This document shows, piece after piece, positions 1 through 39,451 of a stretch of 64,000 bases of DNA. The notes beneath the pieces were generated by a model. The model was given only the letters and a program-made list of their open reading frames with translations, had not been told where the DNA came from and did not search any database. A program made the position numbers and the translations under genes. The DNA is from Dickeya oryzae (GTDB lineage: Bacteria > Pseudomonadota > Gammaproteobacteria > Enterobacterales > Enterobacteriaceae). How positions within the stretch are numbered: the first letter of the stretch is position 1; every line of letters begins with the position of its first letter. The stretch covers positions 124,001 to 188,000 of the forward strand of contig NZ_SULL01000016.1 in the NCBI RefSeq assembly GCF_009372235.1. Reading direction: 5' to 3'.

Positions 1-193
1 CTGTATAGCAGGGTAATGAGAAATGCTTTTGCCTGACGACGGTGTGGTGGTGAAGACGTACATGGCCTAAAGACTGTGGGTGTGGTGCCGTTATGTTTCA
101 ATATGTGTCAGAAAAATGTGGCCCGATGGTGTGGGAACACCTCATGCTTCATTTTTGCTGATGAGTGATGACCGGCGCTGCATAGGACTTCGA

Positions 194-10838: not shown

Positions 10839-12116
10839 TTAACGCATTGAGGGTGACGAGGGATGCTGGGCGCGGGCAAAAAAGTTTTCATCGCCGAAGT
10901 TGCCAGACTTGAGCGCCAGCGACAGTGGGTGATCCACCGAGGTGACCCACGGCACGCCGGGCGAAATTGTAGGGCCGATGTGGAAGGCGCGAATGCCAAG
11001 CGTTTGTACGACGATGCTGGAGGTTTCACCGCCCGCGATGATAAAGCGGCGGAAACCCGCAGCCTGCAAGTGTGCCGCCACGCTGGCGAACAGGGTTTCC
11101 ACCGCACGGCTACTGGCGGCGGCACCATACTGCTGCTGAATAGCACTCAGCGCCTGTGGTTCAGCGGTAGCGAACAGCAGGGGGGCCAGTGTGTCATCCC
11201 GATGGGTGATCGCCCAATCGGCGAGTTCGCGGGCGTAACGTTGCAACCCGGTTTCGCTTGCCAGACAGCGCACGACATCCACCGCCTGACTGGCCGCCTG
11301 CTGGCGATAACACGCCACCTGTTGGTTGGTCATTACTGAGCAGGAGCCGGAAAGCACCACGGCCGGGCCGGGTTGCGGCTCGCCCGCCTTCGTCGCCGGG
11401 CATGAGTCGGCACCTGCCCAGACGCGTGCTAATCCTATCGCCAGCCCGGAACCACCGGTGACCAGCTTCATCGTTCGCAGCGCCTCGCCCTGCGTCAGCA
11501 AATGCTGCTCGTTTAGGGTGTCTAACACCGCGTAGCGGCAGCCTTGTTCACGCAGTTGCGCCAGTTGCTGTTGCACCGCCTCGCTGCCTTGCTCCATCAC
11601 ACGATAAGGTACCAGTCCGCAACGTCCGCGCGCCTGGCATTCCATCAGCCGTAACAGGCTGCTGTCGGTCATGGGTGTTACCGGGTGATGGCGCATACCG
11701 GAATCGGATAACAGCTGATCCATCACAAACAGGTGCCCCTGATACACGGTGCGACCGTTGACCGGCAGCGCCGGGGAAATCACCGTCATCGATTCGCCCA
11801 GCGCGTCCAGTAGCGCGTCGGTCACCGGGCCGATATTACCGTTTGCCGTGCTGTCGAAGGTGGAGCAGTACTTGAAGTAAAACTGCTGACAATGCTGTGC
11901 CTGTAACCATGACAGTGCGCTCAGGGAATCGTCGATAGCTTGCTGCACCGGACAGGAGCGTGACTTAAGGCTGATGACCACCGCCTGCGCCTGCACCTGA
12001 TAATCCGCCGACGGTACACCGTTGAGTTGTACCGTCGACAGGCCGTTTTGCACCAGAAAGCTGGCGATGTCGGTGGCACCGGTAAAATCATCTGCGATGA
12101 CGCCCAGGGTAATCAT
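10839..12116 (-). CDS. otnK: 3-oxo-tetronate kinase OtnK (DUF1537 family)
   Basis: This 425-residue kinase is of the four-carbon acid-sugar kinase family (former DUF1537). The N-terminal motif GVIADDFTGATDIA is the sugar-binding signature, and the C-terminal domain has a Gly-rich nucleotide-binding stretch (IIAGGETS). OtnK phosphorylates 3-oxo-tetronate at O4 using ATP. Its ATG overlaps the ltnD stop codon by four bases (ATGA), indicating translational coupling. The length fits the family. A related kinase, DtnK (D-threonate 4-kinase), shares the fold, but the presence of ltnD, otnC and otnI supports OtnK. Confidence 0.9.
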   Translation of the reverse strand: MITLGVIADDFTGATDIASFLVQNGLSTVQLNGVPSADYQVQAQAVVISLKSRSCPVQQAIDDSLSALSWLQAQHCQQFYFKYCSTFDSTANGNIGPVTDALLDALGESMTVISPALPVNGRTVYQGHLFVMDQLLSDSGMRHHPVTPMTDSSLLRLMECQARGRCGLVPYRVMEQGSEAVQQQLAQLREQGCRYAVLDTLNEQHLLTQGEALRTMKLVTGGSGLAIGLARVWAGADSCPATKAGEPQPGPAVVLSGSCSVMTNQQVACYRQQAASQAVDVVRCLASETGLQRYARELADWAITHRDDTLAPLLFATAEPQALSAIQQQYGAAASSRAVETLFASVAAHLQAAGFRRFIIAGGETSSIVVQTLGIRAFHIGPTISPGVPWVTSVDHPLSLALKSGNFGDENFFARAQHPSSPSMR

Positions 12117-13063
12117 GCGTCCTCCTGTGGTTGTGGAAATCCTTGTTGTGACGATCCTTGTTGTGGCAGTTCGATACCATTGAAAATCTTGATCACCGCG
12201 CTGTCATCTTCTTTGCCGAAACCGGCGTTGCTGGCGGCGGTAAACATGTTGAACGCGGTGGAAGCCAGCGGTAGCGGGAAGTGCAACGATTTGGCCGTGT
12301 CGGTAACCAGTCCCAGATCCTTGACGAAGATATCGACGGCAGATTTTGGCGTGTAGTCACCCTCTACCACGTGTTTCATGCGGTTTTCGAACATCCAGGA
12401 ATTACCCGCGGCGTGGGTCACCACGTCATACATTACTGACAGTGGGATACCGGCGCGGGCGGCCAACGCCATCGCTTCGGCACCGGCGGCGATATGTACG
12501 CCCGCCAGCAACTGGTGGATGATTTTTACTGTCGCGCCGAGGCCAATCTCTTCTCCGATACGGTACACCTTGCCTGCGACGGCATTCAGTACCGGTTCGA
12601 GTTTCTCAAACGCTTCATGGCTGCCGGATGCCATGACCGTCATTTCCCCGGCAGCGGCTTTGATAGCACCACCAGACACCGGCGCATCCAGCATCAGTAA
12701 TTGGTGTTCCGCCAGTCGTTCGGCAATGCGTTTGGCGTCCTGCGCTGAAATGGTGGAAGACACCATGACCGCAGTGCCCGGTTTTAGCTGTGCGGCGACA
12801 TTGGCCTCGCCAAACAGAATGCTGTTGACCTGAGCGGCGTTGACCACCAGCAACACGACCGCATCGAGCTGTGTGGCAAAGTGGTCGATCCTGCTGTCGG
12901 CTTGTTCTGCGCCTTCCTGACGCAGTCGCTCTAGCGCGTGCGGGTTGATGTCTACGCCGTAGGTGGTCAATCCGGCGCGGATACAGGAGACGGCGGCACC
13001 GAATCCCATGGAGCCGAGGCCGATCACGGCGACAGCATACTGTGCGGGGGTCTGTGGGTTCAT
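12113..13063 (-). CDS. ltnD: Tetronate 2-dehydrogenase LtnD (beta-hydroxyacid dehydrogenase family)
   Basis: This 316-residue NAD-dependent dehydrogenase is of the 3-hydroxyisobutyrate dehydrogenase superfamily. It shows the N-terminal Rossmann motif VIGLGSMGFGAA, the substrate loop DAPVSGG, and the catalytic-lysine helix beginning KIIHQLLAG. In this context it oxidises L-threonate (or D-erythronate) to the 2-oxo acid, the first pathway step. It is the first gene of the minus-strand operon, opposite a divergent DeoR regulator and downstream of a CRP-like site. Its C-terminus carries a Gln-rich tail that looks extra relative to the conserved family core. Confidence 0.88.
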   Translation of the reverse strand: MNPQTPAQYAVAVIGLGSMGFGAAVSCIRAGLTTYGVDINPHALERLRQEGAEQADSRIDHFATQLDAVVLLVVNAAQVNSILFGEANVAAQLKPGTAVMVSSTISAQDAKRIAERLAEHQLLMLDAPVSGGAIKAAAGEMTVMASGSHEAFEKLEPVLNAVAGKVYRIGEEIGLGATVKIIHQLLAGVHIAAGAEAMALAARAGIPLSVMYDVVTHAAGNSWMFENRMKHVVEGDYTPKSAVDIFVKDLGLVTDTAKSLHFPLPLASTAFNMFTAASNAGFGKEDDSAVIKIFNGIELPQQGSSQQGFPQPQEDA

Positions 13064-13133
13064 AGGGCTTTCTCTGTTAATTTTAGTGATATTTTGTTGT
13101 GATGTGTTAAATGTAGGCGCTTGTTAGCGGTAA

Positions 13134-13155
13134 TGCGGTGATTGATATCACACAA
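13134..13155. promoter_or_regulatory. CRP-like operator in the divergent ltnD/DeoR region
   Basis: The sequence GGTGA-N6-TCACA at 13137-13152 is one base from the CRP core TGTGA-N6-TCACA. It lies between ltnD and the divergent regulator, as expected for catabolite control of a carbon-source operon. Confidence 0.65.
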
Positions 13156-13346
13156 ATTAACATTGATGGGCAAGACGACGAGAATCGGGTGACGGGGCAT
13201 GAGGAGGCCATATTGGCGGATGTTACGCTCTATTGCGGGCGGATGTCGGTGAGCGCATAGTTTGCGACGTGAATTTATGATAATTATCGCGCTCGGCACA
13301 GGGTGAAATCACAATAGTTATCACAGCAATTAACAGGAGTGGGGAA

Positions 13347-27404: not shown

Positions 27405-27968
27405 ATGCGGGGCACCCTCATCACGTTATCTTTTACTTCACTGCTGATGCTGGTCACCGGCACTGTGATGGCGATCGAGCATCATTCTTCTGTCGACAGT
27501 GATGCCTCTGCCGAAAACAATGCCCCACAAGTGGGGAACTGTTATCGGGATGACTCTGCCACGAAACGTGAAGAGAGTCAGCAAGGTATGTTCGACGGTG
27601 TGAGGCTGACGGAACACCAGCGTCAGCAAATGCGTGACCTGATGCGGCAAGTGCGCCACGAACAGCCTGCTTATGAGGCGAATGATGTGGAAATCATGCA
27701 TCGGTTGGTCACGGCAGAAAAATTTGATGCCCCGGCGGTGCAGGCGCAGGTCGCCAAAATGGTACAGGCACAGATTGCGCGTCAGGTAGAAATCGCCCGG
27801 GTGAGTAATCAGATGTACAACATGCTGACGCCGGAGCAAAAAGCGGTGTTAAACCAGAAACATGAGCAGGCGATGCAGACTGTGCGCCAGCAGATGCCCG
27901 CGTCCGACTCGAGCAGCCAGAATTTGCAACTGTCCCGTCAGGGGCAGGATGAGAGCCCAGAGCAGTGA
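27405..27968 (+). CDS. cpxP: Periplasmic Cpx inhibitor/chaperone CpxP
   Basis: This 187-residue protein has a signal peptide (cleavage expected after residue 23) and the two LTxxQ motifs of the CpxP/Spy family (LTEHQ at 68-72, LTPEQ at 141-145). CpxP dampens CpxA signalling and delivers misfolded proteins to degradation. It is divergent from cpxRA with a CpxR box between them. The AGAGGAG ribosome site supports the ATG at 27405. Its 3'-UTR encodes the small RNA CpxQ. Confidence 0.94.
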
Positions 27969-28070: not shown

Positions 28071-28131
28071 TTTTCCTTGCCATAGACACCATCCCTGTCT
28101 TTTTCCCCGCCTTGATGGCGGGGTTTTTTTT
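28071..28131 (+). ncRNA. cpxQ: Small regulatory RNA CpxQ (cpxP 3'-UTR)
   Basis: The 3' end of the cpxP transcript carries the single-stranded region of CpxQ (TTTTCCTTGCCATAGACACC and the next ten bases) essentially as I remember it from E. coli and Salmonella, followed by a GC-rich hairpin and eight T residues. CpxQ is released from cpxP mRNA by RNase E and, with Hfq, represses envelope-related mRNAs. The terminator stem-loop differs from the enterobacterial version I recall and instead matches terminators inside the neighbouring tail-fibre array. Confidence 0.88.
28105..28131 (+). terminator. cpxP/CpxQ intrinsic terminator
   Basis: A 7-bp stem (CCCCGCC / GGCGGGG) with loop TTGAT is followed by eight T. 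It ends both cpxP mRNA and CpxQ. The same stem core and loop recur at 30585 and 32519. Confidence 0.95.
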
Positions 28132-28207: not shown

Positions 28208-28696
28208 CTAATGGTGACGCCATTTCTGGGTGATGGGGTTACTGATGTTGTTTTCTGCCAGGGTAAAGGTGCCATTCTGTTGTGCGATAGCTTCTCCCGT
28301 GTCGACAATCGCATTTTGTATAAAGTATTTTTCCTTATCCCCATTAATAAAGGTTAACTGGTGAAAGGCAGTCTTTTTTCCCCAATCTTCAGAAGGTAAT
28401 GAGATATATCTGATAGTGTATGTTTGATCTTGAAAATTTCCCTGCATGACATAGACGCCATAATGCTCTTCACCCTGGGAGATTATTTTATAAATACCAT
28501 TGTCATAATAAAATATTTCCGCATCAGGAAAGGGTTTCTTTTCATAGAGTTTACGGTAATGCAGCGTTTGCTTGTAAGTCGGCGCACCAAAGCCAACTTC
28601 GAGTTTTTGCTCATTATTATCGGTGGTTAACGAGCTTGCCTTGCTGGAGCTGACGGTCATCAGTCCCAGAAAAAGAAATGAAAAATTCATCTTCAT
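28208..28696 (-). CDS. Small secreted protein of unknown function
   Basis: This 162-residue protein has an N-terminal signal peptide (hydrophobic residues 4-16, cleavage expected near residues 20-21) and a beta-rich body without Cys. An AAGGAG site about eight bases upstream supports the ATG at 28696. The gene is clearly more AT-rich than the surrounding housekeeping genes and lies at the left edge of the tail-fibre array, pointing away from it. I recognise no family. It is probably horizontally acquired. Confidence 0.7.
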   Translation of the reverse strand: MKMNFSFLFLGLMTVSSSKASSLTTDNNEQKLEVGFGAPTYKQTLHYRKLYEKKPFPDAEIFYYDNGIYKIISQGEEHYGVYVMQGNFQDQTYTIRYISLPSEDWGKKTAFHQLTFINGDKEKYFIQNAIVDTGEAIAQQNGTFTLAENNISNPITQKWRHH

Positions 28697-29067
28697 GACC
28701 TATCTCCTTAACGTTGCTTCATGATTCCTCTGAAAAATAATAATGCATGCTGGTTGAGGTGACTACCCGCCTGTCGATTCTCTGGAGGAATTATATTTCT
28801 GTCATGCCAATGATGTTACTAATTATCACCTGCTTTCCCGTTGTTTATGGCGATGAATTTATGGCGATAAAAAAACACGATAAGAGTGGTTGTGCTATCG
28901 CTGTTCCAACCCTAATCAGGCGTTTTTTTGTTGGCCTGTCAGCATAATGCCCGGTACTGCCACAACAGGCTTAAATCGCTTGAAAAAGTGCATGTCGACA
29001 GGTGTGGCGGTATTTTCTCCATGCCTGAGCATGGGTCTCTTTATCGCTAATTCTGATGAGACATATT
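28697..29067. other. Divergent region holding the leader of fibre 1
   Basis: This 371-bp gap separates the small secreted protein gene and fibre gene 1. It contains an Ogr-type late promoter at 28891-28948 and a roughly 120-nt leader before the fibre 1 ATG. Short ORFs here have no ribosome sites. Confidence 0.6.
28891..28948 (+). promoter_or_regulatory. P2-type (Ogr/Delta) late promoter A, slightly degenerate
   Basis: TGT-N12-CCA (one base from TGT-N12-ACA) at 28891-28908 is followed, at the same distance as in promoters B-D, by CATAAT at 28943-28948. The dyad centre falls at about -55 if transcription starts 7 nt past the -10 box. It precedes fibre 1. Confidence 0.6.
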
Positions 29068-30483
29068 ATGAGTACGAAATATACGGCTCTGCTTACCCAG
29101 GTGGGAGCCGCCAGGCTGGCTAATGCCATCGCGCAGGGAAAACAATTGGCGATCGCACGGATGGGCGTAGGCGATGGCGGTGGTATATTACCCACGCCGA
29201 ACCCCTCCCAGACTGCGCTGTTGAATGAAAAACGCCGCGCTGCGATTAATTCGTTGAGTATCGACCCCACTAACGCGAACCAGATTATTGTCGAACAGGT
29301 TATCCCGGAAAACGAGGGGGGATTCTGGCTGCGGGAAATTGGTTTGTACGATGACGATGATAATTTGATTGCGGTAGCTAACTGCCCGGAAACTTATAAA
29401 CCGCAGTTACAGGAGGGTTCTGGCCGTGTACAGACGGTACGTATGATTCTGGCTGTCAGCCAGGTTGATGCGGTGTCATTGAAAATTGACCCGGCGGTGG
29501 TGTTGGCGAGTCGGCAATATGTCGATGACAAGGCATTATCTTCGCAGACGTATACCAATACGAAAGTAACGGAAGTTAAATCCTATACCGACAATGGATT
29601 AGCTGCACATATTGCTGCTGTGAATCCACACAAGCAGTATGCGCCGATTGAAAGCCCGGTATTTACCGGTAATCCCACCGCACCGACACCACCTTTATTT
29701 GATGCGGATAGCAGTATTGCGACTACGGCGTTTGTGCAAAGATCACTGGGTAATTTACAGGGTGTATACCAGATAAAAGAGTCGACCACACTGACCCCTG
29801 ATGCGTTTGGGCGCTTTATTGAAGTCATTTCACCCGGTATTACACTTACTTTGCCTGATGCAACCCTATGTCAAGGCGGGGTAATTGAGCTGCGCAATGC
29901 CAGCGGGGGTGTGCTCTCGGTCTCTGGAGCGGGGAAAAGTATTGTGGGTTCCGTAACCCCTGTGGGGCCGGACAGTATCGTATTGCAGAGCGGAACTTAC
30001 GTACGCTTACTGACGACGGGGGGCGATTGGCGTGTCTCAGGTGCCAATCTCCCACTTGATGAAATTGCGGGTATTCCATTGCCCTGGCCGCAGTCTATGG
30101 CACCCACTGGCTGGCTTAAATGTAACGGTCAGTCGTTCGATAAAAATCTGTATCCCAAGTTGGCGCAGGTTTATCCATCAGGCTTGTTGCCCGATTTGCG
30201 TGGCGAGTTTATTCGTGGCTGGGATGATGGGAGAGGAGTGGATGAAGGACGAGTTCTCGGGTCTGCACAGGCTGGTACTTATATTACAGGTGATAATGGT
30301 AATACACCCGCAGTGCAGGGTATTGGGAATTTGCAAGAATGTAATGCGGATAAACCAGATTCGATAGCAAGGTCAATATATTGGATAGCTACATCTAGTA
30401 CTCAGGAGTCGATTGGTTCTCCTTATTGGGGGGTGACTCGTCCACGAAATATCGCCTTTAACTACATTGTGAGAGCCGCATAA
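29068..30483 (+). CDS. Phage tail-fibre protein 1 (tail-collar type)
   Basis: This 471-residue fibre starts with the conserved attachment domain shared by all five fibres (MSTKYTALLTQVG..., about residues 1-155, including [16 protein letters not shown]). A repetitive shaft follows with the motif [18 protein letters not shown], then a beta-rich segment, a tail-collar domain (PTGWLKCNGQSFDKNLYPKL...FIRGWDDGRGVD), a variable tip and the terminal RPRNIAFNYIVRAA. The ATG at 29068 is chosen by alignment with the other fibres over an in-frame ATG at 29056. No assembly gene follows; a terminator does. It probably forms the receptor-binding fibre of a P2-like tail or tailocin. Confidence 0.9.
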   Translation: MSTKYTALLTQVGAARLANAIAQGKQLAIARMGVGDGGGILPTPNPSQTALLNEKRRAAINSLSIDPTNANQIIVEQVIPENEGGFWLREIGLYDDDDNLIAVANCPETYKPQLQEGSGRVQTVRMILAVSQVDAVSLKIDPAVVLASRQYVDDKALSSQTYTNTKVTEVKSYTDNGLAAHIAAVNPHKQYAPIESPVFTGNPTAPTPPLFDADSSIATTAFVQRSLGNLQGVYQIKESTTLTPDAFGRFIEVISPGITLTLPDATLCQGGVIELRNASGGVLSVSGAGKSIVGSVTPVGPDSIVLQSGTYVRLLTTGGDWRVSGANLPLDEIAGIPLPWPQSMAPTGWLKCNGQSFDKNLYPKLAQVYPSGLLPDLRGEFIRGWDDGRGVDEGRVLGSAQAGTYITGDNGNTPAVQGIGNLQECNADKPDSIARSIYWIATSSTQESIGSPYWGVTRPRNIAFNYIVRAA

Positions 30484-30583
30484 ACGAGAGATATTTTTCC
30501 ACTGTAGTAAATATCTTCTGTGAATAAAAACACATTGATTATTCTATTTGAACTGGATTGACTGAATATATCACTCTTTTTCT

Positions 30584-30610
30584 ACCCGCCTTGATGGCGG
30601 GTTTATTTTT
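30584..30610 (+). terminator. Terminator of fibre module 1
   Basis: Stem CCCGCC / GGCGGG with loop TTGAT is followed by TTTATTTTT. It is the same stem-loop as at the cpxP/CpxQ end and in module 2. Confidence 0.85.
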
Positions 30611-30621
30611 ATCAGCACTGT

Positions 30622-30679
30622 TGTGCCATGGTAGATACAACCCCCGTCGGACGATTTACCCCCTATCTCTTTGCATAAT
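30622..30679 (+). promoter_or_regulatory. P2-type (Ogr/Delta) late promoter B
   Basis: TGT-N12-ACA at 30622-30639 is centred 43 bp before a CATAAT -10 box (30674-30679), i.e. at about -55. This is the P2 late-promoter architecture. The fibre 2 ATG follows after a leader of about 110 nt. There is no good -35 hexamer, as expected for an activator-dependent promoter. Confidence 0.78.
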
Positions 30680-30791
30680 GTTGTCAGAGGCAACAACAAC
30701 ATGAAATGGCTTGCAAAAGCAGGTGGTGATTCTTGCTGTGCATTATGGCGATACAACATGACTGTTTAAGGTAACCCGGAAGGAAAATGGT

Positions 30792-32084
30792 ATGGCGGCG
30801 AAATATATAGCATTGCTCACTCAGGTGGGAGCGTCGAAACTGGCGAATGCCACGGCATTAGGGAAAATACTGAATATTACCCATATGGGGGTGGGGGATG
30901 GCGGCGGTAACCCGACAACACCTAATCTGACTCAGACGGCATTAATTAATGAAAAACGTCGGGCGGAATTAACGACCCTGAACGTGGACCCCGCTAATCC
31001 GAACCAAATTATTGCCGAGCAGATAATTCCAGAAAATGAAGGGGGGTTCTGGCTGCGTGAAATCGGGTTATACGATGCAGATGGGGATTTGATCGCGGTA
31101 GCCAACTGCCCGGAAACCTATAAACCGCAGATGCAGGAAGGCTCTGGTCGTGTACAGACAGTGCGCATGATTCTGGCTGTCAGCCAGACTGATGCAGTGT
31201 CATTGAAAATTGACCCGGCGGTAGTGTTGGCAAGTCGGCAATATGTTGACGACAAGGCATTATCGTCGCAGGCGTATACCGATACGAAAATCACGGAAGT
31301 TAAATCCTATACCGACAATGGATTAGCCGCACATACTGCTGCTGTAAATCCACATAAGCAGTATGCACCGATTGAAAGCCCGGTATTTACCGGTAATCCC
31401 GCGGCACCAACGCCACCTTTATTTGATGCGGATAGCAGTATTGCGACTACGGCGTTTGTGCAAAGAGCCTTGGGTAATATGCGGTCGGTATTGGGTGTCA
31501 AAGAAAGCCAGGTGTTAACCGGTGATGCGTTTGGCTGCTTTATTGAAGCCCAGGTGGCAGGTATTACGATTACGTTACCGAACGCGTCCCTTTGCGCTGG
31601 TGGGGTTATTGAGTTCAATAATATCTCCAACGGAGCTGTGACGATTTCTGGTGCAGGGGTGAATATTCTGGGGCCCAATAACCCATCTGGCTCAAATACG
31701 ATGACGGTTAAAAGTGGGACGAATATAAAATTCCTTTCCACGGGGCCACAGTGGCGTGCGATTGGTGGTGTAGGCGCTGCTGGTGTAGGGTTGAATGGTT
31801 ATCAAATTTTACCGTCCGGCATTATTATGCAATGGGGGACCGGGGTAACCTTAGGCGCGGGAGTTATCAACCAGCTATTCCCTATTGCCTATCCTAATAA
31901 TATCTTCTCCGTCGTTATTACGGAAAATAACTCCGTTGGCTGGAATTATACGGGGGTGACAGTGTATGGGCAAAGTAATAGTACAAAAGAAATGCTGAAA
32001 GGCTATGGTGCCTTTGTTCGTAATGGTGGTTCCGTTGAGTTCTCTTCGGGTATTTCATATCAGTTTATTGCAATAGGGAATTGA
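30792..32084 (+). CDS. Phage tail-fibre protein 2 (gp53-like tip)
   Basis: This 430-residue fibre shares with fibre 1 an almost identical N-terminal half (attachment domain and shaft to about residue 235, ending in the SSIATTAFVQRALGN segment). The distal half differs: instead of a collar domain it ends in a beta-rich tip beginning GYQILPSGIIMQWGTG and finishing YQFIAIGN, resembling gp53-like fibre C-termini. An assembly gene follows after 8 bp. It should recognise a different receptor from fibres 1, 3 and 4. Confidence 0.9.
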   Translation: MAAKYIALLTQVGASKLANATALGKILNITHMGVGDGGGNPTTPNLTQTALINEKRRAELTTLNVDPANPNQIIAEQIIPENEGGFWLREIGLYDADGDLIAVANCPETYKPQMQEGSGRVQTVRMILAVSQTDAVSLKIDPAVVLASRQYVDDKALSSQAYTDTKITEVKSYTDNGLAAHTAAVNPHKQYAPIESPVFTGNPAAPTPPLFDADSSIATTAFVQRALGNMRSVLGVKESQVLTGDAFGCFIEAQVAGITITLPNASLCAGGVIEFNNISNGAVTISGAGVNILGPNNPSGSNTMTVKSGTNIKFLSTGPQWRAIGGVGAAGVGLNGYQILPSGIIMQWGTGVTLGAGVINQLFPIAYPNNIFSVVITENNSVGWNYTGVTVYGQSNSTKEMLKGYGAFVRNGGSVEFSSGISYQFIAIGN

Positions 32085-32092
32085 GGTGTAAT

Positions 32093-32473
32093 ATGTTTTA
32101 CTCTAAATCGTCTAATGGTTTTTATAGCCGTGAAATTCATGGTGCTAATGTTCCTGATGATGTTATTGAAATCAGTGATGATGATTATCAGGACTTATTA
32201 AGCCAACAGGTTCTTGGTAACGCTATTGTGTTTGATGAATCAACCCAAAAACCGATAGCGGTTACACCGGCATCACCATCGAAAACGCAGTTGGCGGAGG
32301 CCGCACGGCGTCAACGAGATAGCTTATTGGCTACCAGTGACTGGACGCAAGCGCCTGATGCCCCAGTAGATCAACAGGCCTGGCGGATATATCGGGAGGC
32401 ACTGCGCAAGATTCCTGAACAGGCGGGGTTTCCCGTCACTATTGAATGGCCGTTATTACCTGAAAATAAATAA
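32093..32473 (+). CDS. Tail-fibre assembly protein for fibre 2
   Basis: This 126-residue protein resembles the Caudovirales tail-fibre assembly (chaperone) family, which helps trimerise or attach distal fibre tips. The start at 32093 has a GAGG site; an upstream TTG overlaps the fibre stop and is less likely. The N-terminal half is specific to this cassette (FYSKSSNGFYSREIHG). The C-terminal half carries the family pattern of a charged helix (EAARRQRDSLLATSDW) and the ending AWRIYREALRKIPEQ...IEWP. It is cotranscribed with fibre 2. Confidence 0.85.
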   Translation: MFYSKSSNGFYSREIHGANVPDDVIEISDDDYQDLLSQQVLGNAIVFDESTQKPIAVTPASPSKTQLAEAARRQRDSLLATSDWTQAPDAPVDQQAWRIYREALRKIPEQAGFPVTIEWPLLPENK

Positions 32474-32517
32474 CCGTATTTTTCTTTTTAGTTTTTCTCA
32501 TCGTCTTTTTTAACGTT

Positions 32518-32542
32518 CCCCGCCTTGATGGCGGGTTTTTTT
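32518..32542 (+). terminator. Terminator of fibre module 2
   Basis: Stem CCCGCC / GGCGGG with loop TTGAT is followed by seven T. It is identical in stem core and loop to the terminators at 28105 and 30584, and lies just before promoter C. Confidence 0.9.
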
Positions 32543-32554
32543 CACCCGTGTTGT

Positions 32555-32612
32555 TGTGCCATGGCGGATACAACGCCAGCCAGACGATTTGCCTGCCGTC
32601 TCTTTGCATAAT
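32555..32612 (+). promoter_or_regulatory. P2-type (Ogr/Delta) late promoter C
   Basis: TGT-N12-ACA at 32555-32572 and CATAAT at 32607-32612 have the same spacing as promoter B (dyad centre about -55). The flanking sequence and leader are closely similar to those of promoter B. Confidence 0.78.
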
Positions 32613-32723
32613 GTTGTCAGAGGCAACAACAAAATGAAATGGCTTGCAAAAACAGACGGCAGTCTTCGCGGTACGGATTGCGATGCCATATGACGGATTA
32701 AGCTGACCTGAAAGGAAAATGGT

Positions 32724-33824
32724 ATGACGGTGAAATACATGACATTGCTCACCCAGGTGGGAAGGGCGAAACTGGCGAATGCCGCGGCATTAGGAAAAAT
32801 GCTGAATATTACCCACATGGGGATAGGCGATGGGGGCGGTAACCCAACAACGCCAGACCCGGCACAGACGGCATTAATTAATGAAAAACGCCGGGCGGTA
32901 TTGAATGCCCTGAGAGTGGACCCCAATAACCCAAACCAGATTATTGCCGAACAGGTGATCCCGGAAAATGAAGGCGGATTCTGGCTGCGTGAGATCGGGT
33001 TATATGATGCGGATGGGGATTTGATCGCAGTCGCCAACTGCCCGGACACCTACAAACCGCAGTTGCAGGAAGGCTCGGGTCGCGTGCAAACCGTGCGTAT
33101 GATTTTGGTGGTTAGCAATGCCAGCGCCGTTACCTTGAAAGTGGACCCGTCGGTGGTACTGGCAACCCGTCAGTCGGTTGATGACAAAGCCATTGAGGTG
33201 AAAGCCTACGCCGATACGCTGATGACCAGCCATGTGAGTGAGGCGAATCCGCACAAGCAGTATGCGCCGATTGAAAGCCCTGCATTGACGGGCATTCCCA
33301 CCGCGCCGACCGCAGTGGCAGGAACGACCACAACACAATTGGCAACGACGGCATTTGTGGCAGGGGCGGTGAATTCACTGTCAGATAAAACCGATAACAA
33401 CATCAAACTAAAACTGGATATTAATGACATCGTGGGTATTCCACTGCCCTGGCCGCAGGCTAACGTGCCTTCGGGCTGGCTCAAATGCAACGGTCAGGCG
33501 TTTGATAGAAACCTGTATCCACGGCTGGCACAGGTCTACCCGTCGGGAGTATTGCCTGATTTGCGTGGTGAGTTTATTCGTGGTTGGGATGATGGGCGTG
33601 GGGTGGATAGTGGTCGGCAGTTGTTAGTGTTGCAATCTGATGAGTTTAAAAATCACTCACATACATATACGGTAAGTCTTGACCGAGCACCAGCAACAGC
33701 AGGCAATGCAGTGTTTGGTGATGAACCATATTATGGCACTACTACTATTGCGGTCTCGCCAGCAGGTGGTGCAGAAACGCGTCCCCGAAACATTGCCTTT
33801 AACTACATCGTAAAGGCGGCATAA
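32724..33824 (+). CDS. Phage tail-fibre protein 3 (tail-collar type)
   Basis: This 366-residue fibre has the conserved N-terminal attachment domain (MTVKYMTLLTQVG...), a shorter shaft ([30 protein letters not shown]), a collar domain (PSGWLKCNGQAFDRNLYPRL...FIRGWDDGRGVDSGR), a variable tip with an NHSHTY motif, and the terminal RPRNIAFNYIVKAA. No assembly gene follows. It has its own late promoter. The leader is similar to that of fibre 2 and the collar to those of fibres 1 and 4, so it looks like a recombinant of array parts. Confidence 0.9.
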   Translation: MTVKYMTLLTQVGRAKLANAAALGKMLNITHMGIGDGGGNPTTPDPAQTALINEKRRAVLNALRVDPNNPNQIIAEQVIPENEGGFWLREIGLYDADGDLIAVANCPDTYKPQLQEGSGRVQTVRMILVVSNASAVTLKVDPSVVLATRQSVDDKAIEVKAYADTLMTSHVSEANPHKQYAPIESPALTGIPTAPTAVAGTTTTQLATTAFVAGAVNSLSDKTDNNIKLKLDINDIVGIPLPWPQANVPSGWLKCNGQAFDRNLYPRLAQVYPSGVLPDLRGEFIRGWDDGRGVDSGRQLLVLQSDEFKNHSHTYTVSLDRAPATAGNAVFGDEPYYGTTTIAVSPAGGAETRPRNIAFNYIVKAA

Positions 33825-33971
33825 TAGATATAAAAAAGAGTGTTATTTATTCATCGGCAGTATGGATAAAACAATACAAATTTATTTTGGGGGATGGGAT
33901 TTATTTCTTACAACTACAGCATGCTTGTTTTTAATGAAATTATTACCTGAAGGTATATTTATCCCATCTGT

Positions 33972-34029
33972 TGTGTCATAGCAGAAACAACGCCATCAAC
34001 AGGTAATTATTTTAGTATCTTTGCATAAT
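33972..34029 (+). promoter_or_regulatory. P2-type (Ogr/Delta) late promoter D
   Basis: TGT-N12-ACA at 33972-33989 and CATAAT at 34024-34029 have the same spacing as promoters B and C. The surrounding sequence is diverged and AT-rich, so conservation of the dyad, its spacing and the -10 box stands out. Confidence 0.75.
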
Positions 34030-34123
34030 GGTTGTGAGAACGCAGAACGAACACTCGACTCTGGTATTACGGCAATATTTTTGCCGCTGACTCTATTTTA
34101 AATTTATTCAGACGAGATAAACG

Positions 34124-35053
34124 ATGGGAACTAAATATTTTACGATTCTCACTCATATCGGTGAGGCGAAATTAGCGCAGGCAATCTCAACCGGAAAACC
34201 GCTGGAAATTACCCAAATGGGGGTGGGGGATGGCGGTGGTGTATTACAGGCACCGGACCCGACGCAGACATCACTGGTGAATGAAAAACGCCGGGCGGCG
34301 ATTAATTCCCTGAGTGTGGACCCGGATAACCCCGGTCAGGTTATTGCCGAGCAGGTAATCCCTGAAAATGAAGGGGGGTTCTGGCTGCGTGAGGTGGGGC
34401 TTTATGATGCGGCCGGTAATCTGATTGCGGTGGCAAACTGCCCGGAAACCTATAAACCCGAACTGAAGGAAGGGTCGGGCCGGATTCAGACCGTGCGCAT
34501 GATTCTGATCGTCAGCCGTACTGATGCCATCACCCTAAAATTTGACCCGACGGTGGCGCTGGCGACACGGCGTTATGCCGACACACTGCTGGCCGGGCAT
34601 CTTGCTGAGCCTAACCCGCATTCGCAGTACCTGCTGATCAGTGAGTTTGTGGGGATCCCACAACCCTGGCCGCAGGCGACCGCCCCGGCGGGCTGGCTGA
34701 AATGTAACGGCCAGTCGTTTGATAAAAGCGCTTATCCCCGGCTGGCGCAGGTCTACCCGTCTGGCGTGTTGCCGGATTTGCGCGGTGAATTTATTCGTGG
34801 CTGGGATGATGGGAGAGGGATAGATTCAGGTAGATCATTGCTATCTATGCAAGAATCTACGTGGATACAACCAGATTTAGAAAACGGTACAACTGCATCA
34901 GCTATCGCTCTTGGGAATACTGAGCGTGGTTTTGATTTATCAATGACAGGAGCACTGAGCAATATTCCGGGAGCTACGTCGAATGGCTCAAGAGGTAAAT
35001 GGTATATCAGGCCTCGTAACATCGCCTTTAACTACATCGTGAGGGCGGCGTAA
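34124..35053 (+). CDS. Phage tail-fibre protein 4 (short, tail-collar type)
   Basis: This is one of the two shortest fibres (309 residues). The attachment domain (MGTKYFTILTHIG..., about 1-155) is joined almost directly to a collar domain (PAGWLKCNGQSFDKSAYPRL...FIRGWDDGRGIDSGR), a variable tip (about 245-290) and the terminal RPRNIAFNYIVRAA. The shaft seen in fibres 1-3 is missing. Its stop overlaps the ATG of an assembly gene by one base (TAATG). It resembles fibre 5 in its N-terminal half. Confidence 0.9.
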   Translation: MGTKYFTILTHIGEAKLAQAISTGKPLEITQMGVGDGGGVLQAPDPTQTSLVNEKRRAAINSLSVDPDNPGQVIAEQVIPENEGGFWLREVGLYDAAGNLIAVANCPETYKPELKEGSGRIQTVRMILIVSRTDAITLKFDPTVALATRRYADTLLAGHLAEPNPHSQYLLISEFVGIPQPWPQATAPAGWLKCNGQSFDKSAYPRLAQVYPSGVLPDLRGEFIRGWDDGRGIDSGRSLLSMQESTWIQPDLENGTTASAIALGNTERGFDLSMTGALSNIPGATSNGSRGKWYIRPRNIAFNYIVRAA

Positions 35054-35673
35054 TGACGATATCGACGCAGGACGTGCGCGCAGTGCTGGCGGCAGACGGG
35101 CTGGCTACTCAGGCAGGTTGGTTGCGGGTGTACCACGTGGATGTGCTCACCCGTGAGTTCGATGGTTACAGCGATGAATACCTGATGGTCGGTACCGGGA
35201 TTCCCGCCCATAGCTACGCCGATGAGCCGCCGCAGCCAGAGGTGGAAGGGCAAGCGCTACGGCGTTCATCTGACGGCCTGCAGTGGGAATGGGTGCCTGA
35301 TTTACGTGGGCAGACCGCTTACGATACGCAGACCCGTCAGCCACAGGTGGTGAGTGAGCTGGGTGCGTTGCCCGCAAACCTCACCCTGCTGCCGCCTGCC
35401 AGTGCCTTTGACCGCTGGGAGGGGGCGCAATGGGTAACGGATACGGCGGCCTATCAGGCAAGCCTGGCGCAATCGGCCCGACAGGAGTATGACGCCCGTC
35501 GCCAGATAGCACATGACCGCATTCGCGAGCTGACCTATGCGCAGGAACTGGACATCGCCACCGAGCAGGAAACCGAGGCGCTTAAAAGCTGGAAAATCTA
35601 TCTGGTGCAGTTAAGTCGCGTCGATTTGAGTCATACACCGGACATCGACTGGCCGACCCCTCCATCACACTGA
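35053..35673 (+). CDS. Tail-fibre assembly protein for fibre 4
   Basis: This 206-residue member of the tail-fibre assembly family is longer than its two relatives in the array. It has an N-terminal region (TISTQDVRAVLAADGLATQAG), a central Trp-containing part and the typical helical C-terminal region (ARQEYDARRQIAHDRIREL...EALKSWKIYLVQLSRVD, ending in IDWPTPP). It is translationally coupled to fibre 4. Family membership rests on the C-terminal pattern and position. Confidence 0.85.
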   Translation: MTISTQDVRAVLAADGLATQAGWLRVYHVDVLTREFDGYSDEYLMVGTGIPAHSYADEPPQPEVEGQALRRSSDGLQWEWVPDLRGQTAYDTQTRQPQVVSELGALPANLTLLPPASAFDRWEGAQWVTDTAAYQASLAQSARQEYDARRQIAHDRIRELTYAQELDIATEQETEALKSWKIYLVQLSRVDLSHTPDIDWPTPPSH

Positions 35674-35684
35674 TGAGACGCTAC

Positions 35685-35732
35685 ACCCGTTCGGAATAAC
35701 GCGGCGTTGTTATTCCGAACGGGTTGTTTTTT
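35685..35732 (+). terminator. Terminator of fibre module 4
   Basis: A 16-bp perfect stem beginning ACCCGTTCGGAATAAC with an eight-base loop is followed by TGTTTTTT. Its sequence is unrelated to the module 1 and 2 terminators. Confidence 0.93.
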
Positions 35733-35808
35733 GCTACCCCATTCCAATGCGTTATCCCTCCTGGGTCTTATCGCTCGTTCCTGTTTACCGACCCTGTAGT
35801 GATGATGT

Positions 35809-35865
35809 TGTGCCATCGCTGCTACACCCGTATGAGCGGGTGATTTAACGGGCCATCAGCATAAT
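35809..35865 (+). promoter_or_regulatory. P2-type (Ogr/Delta) late promoter E
   Basis: TGT-N12-ACA at 35809-35826 is followed by CATAAT at 35860-35865, one base closer than in promoters B-D. It precedes fibre 5 with a leader of about 100 nt. Confidence 0.72.
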
Positions 35866-35967: not shown

Positions 35968-36891
35968 ATGGGAACGAAATACTTTACCTTGCTCACCCAG
36001 GTGGGTGAGAAAAAGCTGGCGGCGGCGATAGCCGCAGGAAAAGCGCTGGAGCTGGCCCAAATGGGCGTGGGGGATGGCAACGGTGTACTCCCCACTCCCG
36101 ATCCGCTGCAAACCAAATTGGTCAATGAAAAGCGACGTGGGGTGATCAACTCGCTAACGGTTGACCCGGACAACACCAATCAGATGATTGCCGAGCAAGT
36201 GATCCCGGAAAATGAAGGGGGATTCTGGCTGCGTGAAATCGGGTTGTACGATGTTGATGGTGACTTGATTGCGCTCGGTAACTGCCCGGAAACCTATAAA
36301 CCGGAACTGAAGGAAGGATCGGGCCGGGTGCAGACGGTGCGCATGATCCTGATTGTCAGCCGTACCGATGCGATAACGCTGAAATTTGACCCGACGGTGG
36401 CACTGGCGACACGGCGCTATGCCGATACCTTACTGGCTGATCATGTCGTTGCCGTTAACCCGCATAAGCAGTATGCCCCGATTGAAAGCCCGGCATTTAC
36501 CGGTACTCCTGCGGCACCGACCGCTGTAGCAGGAACGAGAACGACACAACTGGCAACAACCGCCTTTGTAGTAAATGAAATCAATAGTGAATTTACGGAA
36601 TACCATCTCGACGGTGTATTTTCAGCCATCGATATCGCTAAAAAACGACGGATTATGCAAGGAAAGGGCTCCGGAGTATTTTCTAATGGTACTGTGATAT
36701 TCACGTTACCATTAGCATTCAGCGATGCCTATTTTTCATTTATTGCTATTGATGTGGGGAATGGCGCAATTAGTTTTGCGGCAACACCAGCCGGTGCAGG
36801 AACCGTAACTATTTATGCGCGACATGTGGTTAATGGTGCACTGATTAATGGGACATTTGATTTTAAATATATTGCAATGGGGGGAATCTAA
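35968..36891 (+). CDS. Phage tail-fibre protein 5 (distinct tip)
   Basis: The start is placed at 35968 by alignment with the other fibres; an in-frame ATG at 35890 would add 26 unrelated residues. The 307-residue product has the conserved attachment domain ([13 protein letters not shown]), the shaft motif [16 protein letters not shown] with [10 protein letters not shown], and a distinct AT-rich beta tip ending [11 protein letters not shown], with no collar domain. It resembles the fibre 2 class of tips in ending pattern only. Its stop overlaps the start of an assembly gene. Confidence 0.88.
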
Positions 36892-37277
36892 TGTTTTATG
36901 CAACTGATACGGGTTTTACATTTGAATGTATTTCAAATAAGCAAGTACCTGTGACTGATGAGGTATGGTCTGAATTAATTCAGGGGCAAGCATCAGGAAT
37001 GGTAATTACAACCGACCATAATGGTTACCCTGTATTAATAAATGCTCCCCAACTGACATCCTCGCAAGCAGTTGCGAATGCCCAAGCAATGAAGAGCAAA
37101 CTACTTTCTGACGCTGCATTAGTAATTGCACCCTTTCAGGATGCTGTTGATCTTGGTATGGCAACAGACCGTGAAGTTACGCTATTAGCTGAGTGGCGGA
37201 ATTATCGTGTGCTTTTAAATAGAGTTGACACATCCACCGCACCCGATATCACCTGGCCTGCTGCTCCTGCGGCGTAA
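36891..37277 (+). CDS. Tail-fibre assembly protein for fibre 5
   Basis: This 128-residue protein of the tail-fibre assembly type begins one base into the fibre 5 stop codon (TAATG). Its N-terminal half is cassette-specific ([19 protein letters not shown]). The C-terminal half has the family helix and ending ([26 protein letters not shown]). Its last 29 bases overlap the convergent NUDIX gene, so the array stops abruptly here. Confidence 0.85.
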
Positions 37278-37728
37278 CCAGACAAGCTCTGCCCGGCCAC
37301 AGCATTTCAACTAGCTGTTCCGGGTAGACCTTATCCTGTGTGGCGAGGAGTTCATCGCGGCTCCACCAGTGATGGTCTCGCATCACTTCCTGTTCATGCG
37401 CCGTCCAGTTGCCAGTGTGGAGAGTACTGCCGGTGATAGGGATGACAAAAAACCGTTCATCGGCAAGCACGGTGTTTCCGTCAGGCATCGCCATGGTAAA
37501 GGTACGCGTCGCGATACACGGGCCGGGACCCTGACGACGGATACCGGTCTCTTCCCACAGCTCTCGTACCGCTGCCTGCTCAAACGTTTCTCCGTTTTCT
37601 ACCGCCCCGCCAGGTGTTGCCCAATAACGCTGTCCGGCAAGGGCATCCTGAGTATGATGGAACAGAAATAGCAATACCCGTTGTTCAGGGTTGAGAATCA
37701 GCAGGCGTGAAGCTGGTCGCCGTTTCAT
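37249..37728 (-). CDS. NUDIX hydrolase
   Basis: This 159-residue NUDIX-fold pyrophosphohydrolase has a complete NUDIX box at about residues 40-62 ([23 protein letters not shown]). The family cleaves nucleoside diphosphates linked to another moiety; the substrate is not predictable. The 3' end overlaps the last tail-fibre assembly gene on the opposite strand. Composition is similar to the housekeeping genes, so it may be the ancestral neighbour that marks the right edge of the array. Confidence 0.9.
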
Positions 37729-38548: not shown

Positions 38549-39451
38549 ATGAATTCTCATTACGCACGTCTGGTGACGACCGCGGCTTTTCTGGCTACCG
38601 GTATGGCGTTATCGCTGTTTGGCATGAAGGTGTATGCCTGGTGGTACACCGGTTCGGTCAGCTTGCTGGCATCACTGGTGGATTCGCTGGTGGATATCGC
38701 AGCGTCGCTGGTTAACCTGCTAGTCGTTCGCTATTCGTTGCAACCTGCTGATATGGAACATACGTTCGGGCATGGCAAAGCCGAGTCGCTGGCCGCGCTG
38801 GCGCAGAGCATGTTCATTGCCGGTTCGGCGCTGTTTCTGTTATTGACGGGCGCTCAGCATCTGATGAACCCACAGCCGCTACAAGGGGCTGAACTGGGTA
38901 TGTGGGTGACCGTGATTGCGCTGGTGGCGACGGGCTTTCTGGTGAGCTTCCAGCGTTGGGTTATCCGCAGAACACATAGTCAGGCGGTGCGGGCAGACAT
39001 GCTGCATTACCAGTCTGATGTCCTGATGAATGGCGCCATTTTGCTGTCGTTGGTACTAAGCTGGAAAGGTATCAACTGGGCCGACGCGGTCTTCGCGTTG
39101 GGGATTGGTATCTATATTCTGAGCAGCGCGCTGCGCATGGCCTATGAGGCGATTCAGGTTCTGCTGGACAGAGCCCTGCCTGATGACGAGCGACAGGAAA
39201 TCGTCAATATCGTGTCTTCATGGCCGGGGGTAAGTGGTGCGCATCAGTTGCGCACCCGCCGTTCTGGCCCGACTCGCTTTATCCAGTTGCATCTGGAAAT
39301 GGCGGATAACCTGCCGCTGGTGGAATCACACCAGATTGCGGACGAACTGGAGCAGGCATTGCTCAAACGCTTCCCCGGTTCAGATGTTATCATTCATCAG
39401 GATCCTGTTTCGGTGGTGCCGCAGGAGCAGCGTGGGCGCTGGGAACTGTAA
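38549..39451 (+). CDS. fieF: Ferrous-iron and zinc efflux protein FieF
   Basis: This 300-residue cation diffusion facilitator is very similar to E. coli FieF (YiiP). It has six membrane helices, the DSLVD metal-site motif in the second helix, the HYQSD motif in the fifth, and a cytoplasmic C-terminal domain ending [11 protein letters not shown]. It exports Zn(II), Fe(II) and Cd(II) using the proton gradient. In E. coli it follows cpxP directly; here a 10-kb accessory region intervenes. Confidence 0.96.

Follow-up and report, generated by a model that had tools for sequence, protein, structure and literature searches.

Bacteriophage P2 has four late promoters (PP, PO, PV and PF), which carry the dyad TGT-N12-ACA and are controlled by Ogr, a C4 zinc-finger activator (PMC3931495). 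For satellite P4, it is established that Ogr activates a separate locus in trans (PMC7552001, PMC8628076). Among tailocins, the closest described system is the dickeyocin P2D1 of Dickeya dadantii 3937 (PMC10719855), while the multi-fibre tailocins of Pseudomonas chlororaphis and the invertible fibres of carotovoricin illustrate how several fibres widen the killing range (PMC12090994, PMC13195805). The tailocin of D. dadantii is inducible by mitomycin C, and 2 h after treatment the P2D1 sheath, tube and fibre genes were up 295-, 655- and 191-fold; the 2025 paper that reports these values states that how P2D1 production is regulated, and by which proteins, has still to be worked out (PMC12297226). 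Here we analyze a window of 64,000 nucleotides from Dickeya oryzae (contig NZ_SULL01000016.1, positions 124,001 to 188,000; coordinates below are window positions unless prefixed), in which five tail-fibre genes form an array beside a cpxP-like gene, each preceded by an element resembling a P2 late promoter. We propose that this array probably represents a genus-wide fibre bank, which is activated in trans by the Ogr protein of a tailocin and gives rise to alternative fibres. The five elements are:

28891..28948, + strand, late-promoter element A (dyad 28891-28908, TGT-N12-CCA; CATAAT 28943-28948)
30622..30679, + strand, late-promoter element B (dyad 30622-30639; CATAAT 30674-30679)
32555..32612, + strand, late-promoter element C (dyad 32555-32572; CATAAT 32607-32612)
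33972..34029, + strand, late-promoter element D (dyad 33972-33989; CATAAT 34024-34029)
35809..35865, + strand, late-promoter element E (dyad 35809-35826; CATAAT 35860-35865; spacing 1 base shorter)

An earlier sequence-only reading of this DNA had reported a dyad upstream of every fibre gene and a CATAAT box at a fixed distance from it, and both claims hold on re-examination: all five dyads were located, B to E being exact TGT-N12-ACA and A ending in CCA, and the box lies at +52 from the dyad start in A to D (43.5 from the dyad centre) and at +51 in E (42.5 from the centre). A search of both strands of the window for the dyad with at most one mismatch, combined with CATAAT at +51 or +52, recovered five sites, all of them at the reported positions; for 100 first-order Markov windows the mean was 0.27 and the maximum 2. 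The dyad TGT-N12-ACA taken without CATAAT shows no excess in the window (19 found versus 15.6 expected), and a simple consensus scan for sigma-70-like sites between 27900 and 37800 returned ten candidates, none of which uses the CATAAT boxes. By eye, the leaders that follow the -10 box in B (30680-30700) and C (32613-32633) contain a possible short GTTGTC/GGCAAC hairpin, close to where the transcript would begin.

Comparison with P2 itself supports the proposed P2-family late-promoter architecture, as the dyad type matches PO and PF and its predicted position near -55 agrees with theirs. The annotated activator sites of P2 contain GTTGTGTCAGTGATAAGCCA (PO) and GTTGTGCTGTCGATTAGCCA (PF), which share the left half GTTGTG with the array and have the right half CCA, as in site A; their dyad centres, read by eye, lie 55.5 (PO) and 56.5 (PF) bases upstream of the annotated starts. 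Overall, we regard the promoter type and the activator as strongly supported by sequence. The array differs from P2 in that its promoters lie on the chromosome outside any phage or tailocin, with one per fibre gene, whereas the P2 fibre gene H belongs to the V operon; furthermore, its -10 box is CATAAT, which is not seen by eye in PO or PF. Promoter type and activator are of known kinds; no description of a chromosomal fibre array under such control was found in the literature searched, which lay mostly outside subscription journals.

The activator was predicted to be encoded elsewhere, and the genome indeed has exactly one match to the Ogr/Delta family (PF04606), which lies on contig C1, the window being on C10. 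This Ogr protein is 63 amino acids (aa) long, contains the pattern CX2CX22CX4C and is near-identical across nine Dickeya genomes, where its length is 63-64 aa. Its gene ends a P2-type tail locus of about 23 kb, which codes for a repressor, replication protein A, tail terminator, baseplate and spike proteins, a fibre, a DNA invertase, sheath, tube, tape measure, two tail proteins in P2 order (U, D) and Ogr. Capsid, portal and terminase families were matched by none of the 20 tailocin open reading frames (ORFs) scanned, small ORFs falling outside that scan; the tube ORF is labelled 'head closure' by PHROG, and from its position we read it as the P2 FII equivalent. Judged by gene content, the C1 locus is a dickeyocin P2D1-type cluster with the same gene content as P2D1 (PMC10719855). 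The published account differs in describing one cluster of about 22 kb, and the words ogr, promoter, late control and orphan do not occur in the main text; that paper also reports no tape measure homologue, whereas the locus here has a tape-measure-family match. Two observations concern the layout of this locus: 1) the DNA invertase lies beside a C-terminal fibre piece and a chaperone (C1:246501-248496; L003:2502-4497), where inversion may switch tips too; 2) a gene that appears transporter-like by eye (448 aa, C1:243831-245177) lies between the tailocin fibre and the invertase, and related reading frames occupy the same place (L182 ~11941-13283) in G022, a relative from another genus of the same family.

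Sheath, ogr and fibre matches of the P2D1 type were detected in all nine Dickeya genomes, and in each of them tailocin, ogr and array occur together. The earlier reading would have been refuted by relatives that have the array and no Ogr homologue, and none of the nine is of that kind. The arrays themselves contain no Ogr or sheath matches in any of the nine. Beyond the tailocin's own protein, further Ogr matches were absent from five of the nine genomes, including that of the window, and present in four. The genome of the window has additional matches to the sheath family (PF04984) on contigs C13 (strong), C8 and C2 (both weak), with no PF12571 fibre-domain or Ogr matches on any of the three; the strong match, at C13:94740-95267, points to another contractile-tail element. 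In one relative (G007) the tailocin sheath is the only sheath-family match in the genome, and therefore the tailocin is the sole candidate client found there.

Dyads related to those of the array also precede genes of the tailocin. All nine genomes have GTTGTC and, at +52, CATACT upstream of the tailocin fibre gene, with right halves CCA in five, ACA in two and poor (TAA, CAA) in two, the dyads of G001 and G005 having been located by eye. The sheath gene is preceded in all nine by GTTGTGCCAT with CACTAT at +52, the right half being CAA in eight and CCA in one, and the first tail unit by GTTGTGC(C/T)AT in eight (not G005), with ACA in seven and CCA in one. Hence the left half and the spacing are common to tailocin and array, and the right half is looser in the tailocin. 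In a position-weight scan the tailocin -10 regions scored poorly, and only the dyad half of the model transferred.

A looser pattern allowing one mismatch gave no excess genome-wide (84 matches versus 104 in the control), its nine exact matches being the five array sites, one tailocin site and three elsewhere; patterns built on the conserved GTTGTG were used after this result. Across the nine whole Dickeya genomes, TGTTGTGYYATN8CA had 40 matches, of which 26 fall in arrays, nine in tailocins and five elsewhere, against two for the reversed control. In the genome of the window its five matches comprise four array sites and one tailocin site, with site A outside the pattern.

The element recurs across the genus. 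Fibre comparisons covered 36 array genes with a full N-domain, leaving out four partial rows (G002, G003), and the element lies upstream of 34 of these, with CATAAT in 30, CATACT in three and GATAAT in one, at a spacing of 52 in 29 and 51 in five (script window 51-53). Of the remaining two fibres, one retains CATAAT and the left half but its right half is poor, and the other is without the element. One of the nine arrays is reduced to a single fibre and a remnant. In G002 and G003 (L106, L107) fibre N-domains are truncated, and one remnant keeps a full promoter element (L107, before 11187). A scan of 392 genomes of the family for the element with CATAAT gave five positives, which are the five Dickeya genomes drawn, and none among the other 387, the reversed control matching three genomes; in a scan of a named genome collection, Dickeya undicola 2B12 was the single record recovered, and this is uninformative on rarity, as near records may be omitted there and other Dickeya genomes with exact matches did not come up.

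The claim that the element is under selection is likewise supported. Among 204 pairs of elements with diverged spacer and leader, identity is 1.00 for GTTGTG and 0.945 for CATAAT versus 0.31 for the spacer and 0.285 for the leader, and 0.79 for the right half ACA. The conservation profile was drawn from 30 elements with spacing 52 above a score threshold, including the G003 remnant; the TGT, ACA and CATAAT columns are partly chosen by that threshold, yet columns -2, -1, +3, +7, +19 and +58, which are unselected by it, are invariant.

The fibres themselves show strong constraint on the N-domain, with dN/dS of 0.02-0.19 in 14 array pairs, and tips that change or get replaced; the pairs were hand-chosen (14 array and one tailocin), and the ratios were taken from computed dN and dS. 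In a tree, the tailocin fibre N-domains form one group (97/96), and the array modules fall into classes common to several species, the class of fibre A being represented in all nine genomes. Fibre B of G000 appears mosaic, its N-domain being nearest to one G008 module (97%) and its C-terminal part to another (93%). No near-identical stretches between array and tailocin were seen in the nine genomes: array N-domain DNA is at most 77% identical to any tailocin locus, and the best common C-terminal stretch reaches about 83%. As judged from these comparisons, the array is old, kept and not visibly overwritten from the tailocin.

In light of the above-described connections, the suggestion of a P2-like prophage or tailocin activator acting in trans is supported at the level of sequence, and can be narrowed to a likely partner, namely a P2D1-like tailocin. 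Ogr would bind GTTGT...(A/C)CA-type dyads at about -55 and aid the start of RNA polymerase at the CATAAT boxes. Upon tailocin induction it would then activate the tailocin late genes and, in trans, the five separate fibre or fibre-chaperone units beside cpxP. Array fibres might thereafter assemble on tailocin particles, providing alternative receptor-binding tips and a wider killing range; such tips are envisaged on tailocins because the array N-domains resemble the kind on the tailocin's own fibre, and we consider a fit to the tailocin baseplate plausible. We infer Ogr binding, its timing, the assembly of array fibres onto particles and the wider killing range from sequence comparison. Given the rise of the P2D1 late genes after mitomycin C, an array under Ogr control would be expected to respond likewise. 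In D. dadantii, tailocin production was restored by a plasmid that carried the sheath and tube genes together with 200 bp of their native upstream sequence and that had a lac promoter too (PMC12904277), a rescue that fits trans activation and is no proof of it.

More tentatively, and with the odds falling just short of even, the two loci could constitute a split weapon, in which the tailocin supplies the injector and the activator and the fixed chromosomal bank supplies most of the tips in trans, so that one induction yields several specificities. Satellite P4 offers a parallel as a separate locus activated by the Ogr of its partner; however, P4 is a mobile parasite, whereas the array stays fixed in the chromosome and would contribute components to the particle of its partner. 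In P. chlororaphis and carotovoricin the fibre genes lie within the tailocin locus according to the sources cited, unlike the distant array with its own promoters seen here. If true, activation of the array by the tailocin's Ogr would explain how a tailocin gains targets while its own locus stays unchanged, and would make the regulation of P2D1 directly testable. It would also be a case in which bacteria have retained the late control of a phage as a link between two loci far apart on the chromosome, and prediction of killing range from the tailocin cluster alone may overlook most receptor-binding genes.

Several observations weigh against the main proposal of a fibre bank activated by the tailocin's Ogr. 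Eight bands of P2D1 from D. dadantii 3937 were cut from a gel for mass spectrometry, and the six proteins named are all from the tailocin cluster, with only in-cluster fibres among them (PMC10719855); minor fibres could have escaped such an analysis. The array N-domains share a mean of 73% identity with the tailocin's own, versus 90% among tailocins. Within the tailocin, the first tail unit is without a -10-like box at +52 (GAGGAT or CAGGAT instead), and the right halves are weaker than in the array, with CAA at eight of nine sheath sites and TAA or CAA at two of nine fibre sites. Some arrays are imperfect: one G004 fibre lacks the element, G001 has one short fibre (226 aa), and those of G002 and G003 are partly decayed. 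Co-occurrence alone tests little, both parts being in all nine genomes, and the extra sheath matches on C13, C8 and C2 could be other clients. Lastly, the N-domain of an extra fibre in G022, described below, groups with tailocin and prophage fibres (85/83) and not with the array classes.

Other explanations of the array have to be set against this evidence. It might be a silent bank of cassettes, a recombination reservoir of tips for the tailocin fibre gene whose promoters were copied as passengers. The apparent exchange of C-terminal tips among array positions, as in the mosaic fibre B, would suit such a role, which we nevertheless judge unlikely: tailocin N-domains form a separate group, the low array-tailocin DNA identity gives no sign of recent transfer in the nine genomes, and promoter boxes that stay near-invariant amid near-random surroundings do not look like passengers. 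The promoters could instead be real and mainly serve transient P2-like prophages or P4-like satellites whose Ogr or Delta activates the array. Four of the nine genomes do have extra Ogr homologues, and Ogr and Delta act across elements; yet the tailocin Ogr is the only one in the other five, the window's included, and four prophage fibres examined are without such a promoter, whereas a related promoter precedes the tailocin fibre in all nine. We hold this second explanation to be quite improbable.

A further alternative, that the array is a decaying, functionless relic of the fibre end of a P2-like prophage once beside cpxP, draws on G022 and on the partly decayed arrays of G002 and G003. G022 (regions L173:7754-20000, L174:1-13754 and L182:9400-15600) has a P2-like prophage between cpxP and the NUDIX and fieF genes, with integrase, regulator, replication protein, terminase, portal, baseplate and fibre, and no match to the tailocin sheath, tube or ogr proteins. 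An extra PF12571 fibre is found at the prophage edge on the fieF side, and upstream of it are TGT-N12-ACA and, at exactly +52, CATAAT. The array may thus have originated from a P2-like element once present here, of which the fibre end was kept because the tailocin Ogr could drive it. The tree position of the extra fibre is against simple descent from such an element; moreover, low dN/dS, module classes kept across species and near-invariant promoter boxes speak for present use, making a functionless relic very unlikely.

A P2D1-like tailocin is present in G022 as well; its Ogr is 91.5% identical over 59 aa, and it has the sheath-promoter box. In this tailocin the place of the fibre gene is taken by a 451-aa ORF, of another kind by eye, and a fibre piece without the N-domain follows further on. 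The only two PF12571 genes of G022 are both at the cpxP-fieF locus, namely the prophage H and the orphan behind the promoter. A working G022 tailocin would need a fibre supplied from elsewhere; it may possibly use the distant one, or it may simply be dead.

Returning to the window, all five array genes begin with the P2-type fibre N-domain PF12571, and chaperones occur only in modules B, D and E. The genes of the array are:

29056..30483, + strand, fibre gene A (475 aa from the first ATG, with an in-frame MSTKY start 12 bases further in; PF12571 N-domain and Collar domain)
30792..32084, + strand, fibre gene B (430 aa; PF12571 and gp53-like C-terminal domain)
32081..32473, + strand, tail assembly chaperone of module B (PF16778; in-frame ATG at 32093)
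32724..33824, + strand, fibre gene C (366 aa; PF12571 and Collar domain)
34124..35053, + strand, fibre gene D (309 aa; PF12571 and Collar domain)
35053..35673, + strand, fibre assembly chaperone of module D (PF02413)
35968..36891, + strand, fibre gene E (307 aa from the MGTKY start; PF12571 N-domain)
36891..37277, + strand, fibre assembly chaperone of module E (PF02413)

The statement that the window has no ogr or other late phage gene therefore stands for Ogr, of which there is none, and fails for late genes in general, given the three late-type tail-fibre chaperones. The array reads as separate transcription units because terminator-like hairpins precede elements B, C and E:

30584..30602, + strand, terminator-like hairpin 20 bases upstream of element B
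32519..32535, + strand, terminator-like hairpin 20 bases upstream of element C
35685..35724, + strand, terminator-like hairpin of 17 pairs upstream of element E

The hairpin scan found 15 sites versus 10.7 in shuffles, so that only G+C-rich ones with a T run carry weight; it gave no clear terminator upstream of element D, and a further terminator-like hairpin at 28105, well upstream of element A.

The surroundings agree with the claimed location outside a prophage, as the array lies between a cpxP-like and a NUDIX-type gene, and the main ORFs there are the fibres, the chaperones and one of 162 aa, with no integrase, replication, head or core tail gene among them. The best match to the P2 attachment core in the window is 19/27 and falls outside the array, giving no sign of an integration site. 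The bordering genes are:

27405..27968, + strand, cpxP-like gene (LTXXQ-family match), the left array border, with a homologue on the same side in all nine Dickeya genomes
37249..37728, - strand, NUDIX-type gene, the right array border (name from sequence and gene order)
38549-39451, fieF-like gene, following the NUDIX-type gene (name from sequence and gene order)

In every one of the nine Dickeya genomes the array has homologues of cpxR, cpxA, cpxP and fieF at its flanks (names again taken from sequence and gene order), and the NUDIX gene is present at these arrays too, the match in G003 covering just 47 aa. The 162-aa ORF (28208-28696), which has no Pfam match, lies between cpxP and the array, and its relatives are found at this position in G002, G006 and G008, three of the eight other Dickeya genomes.

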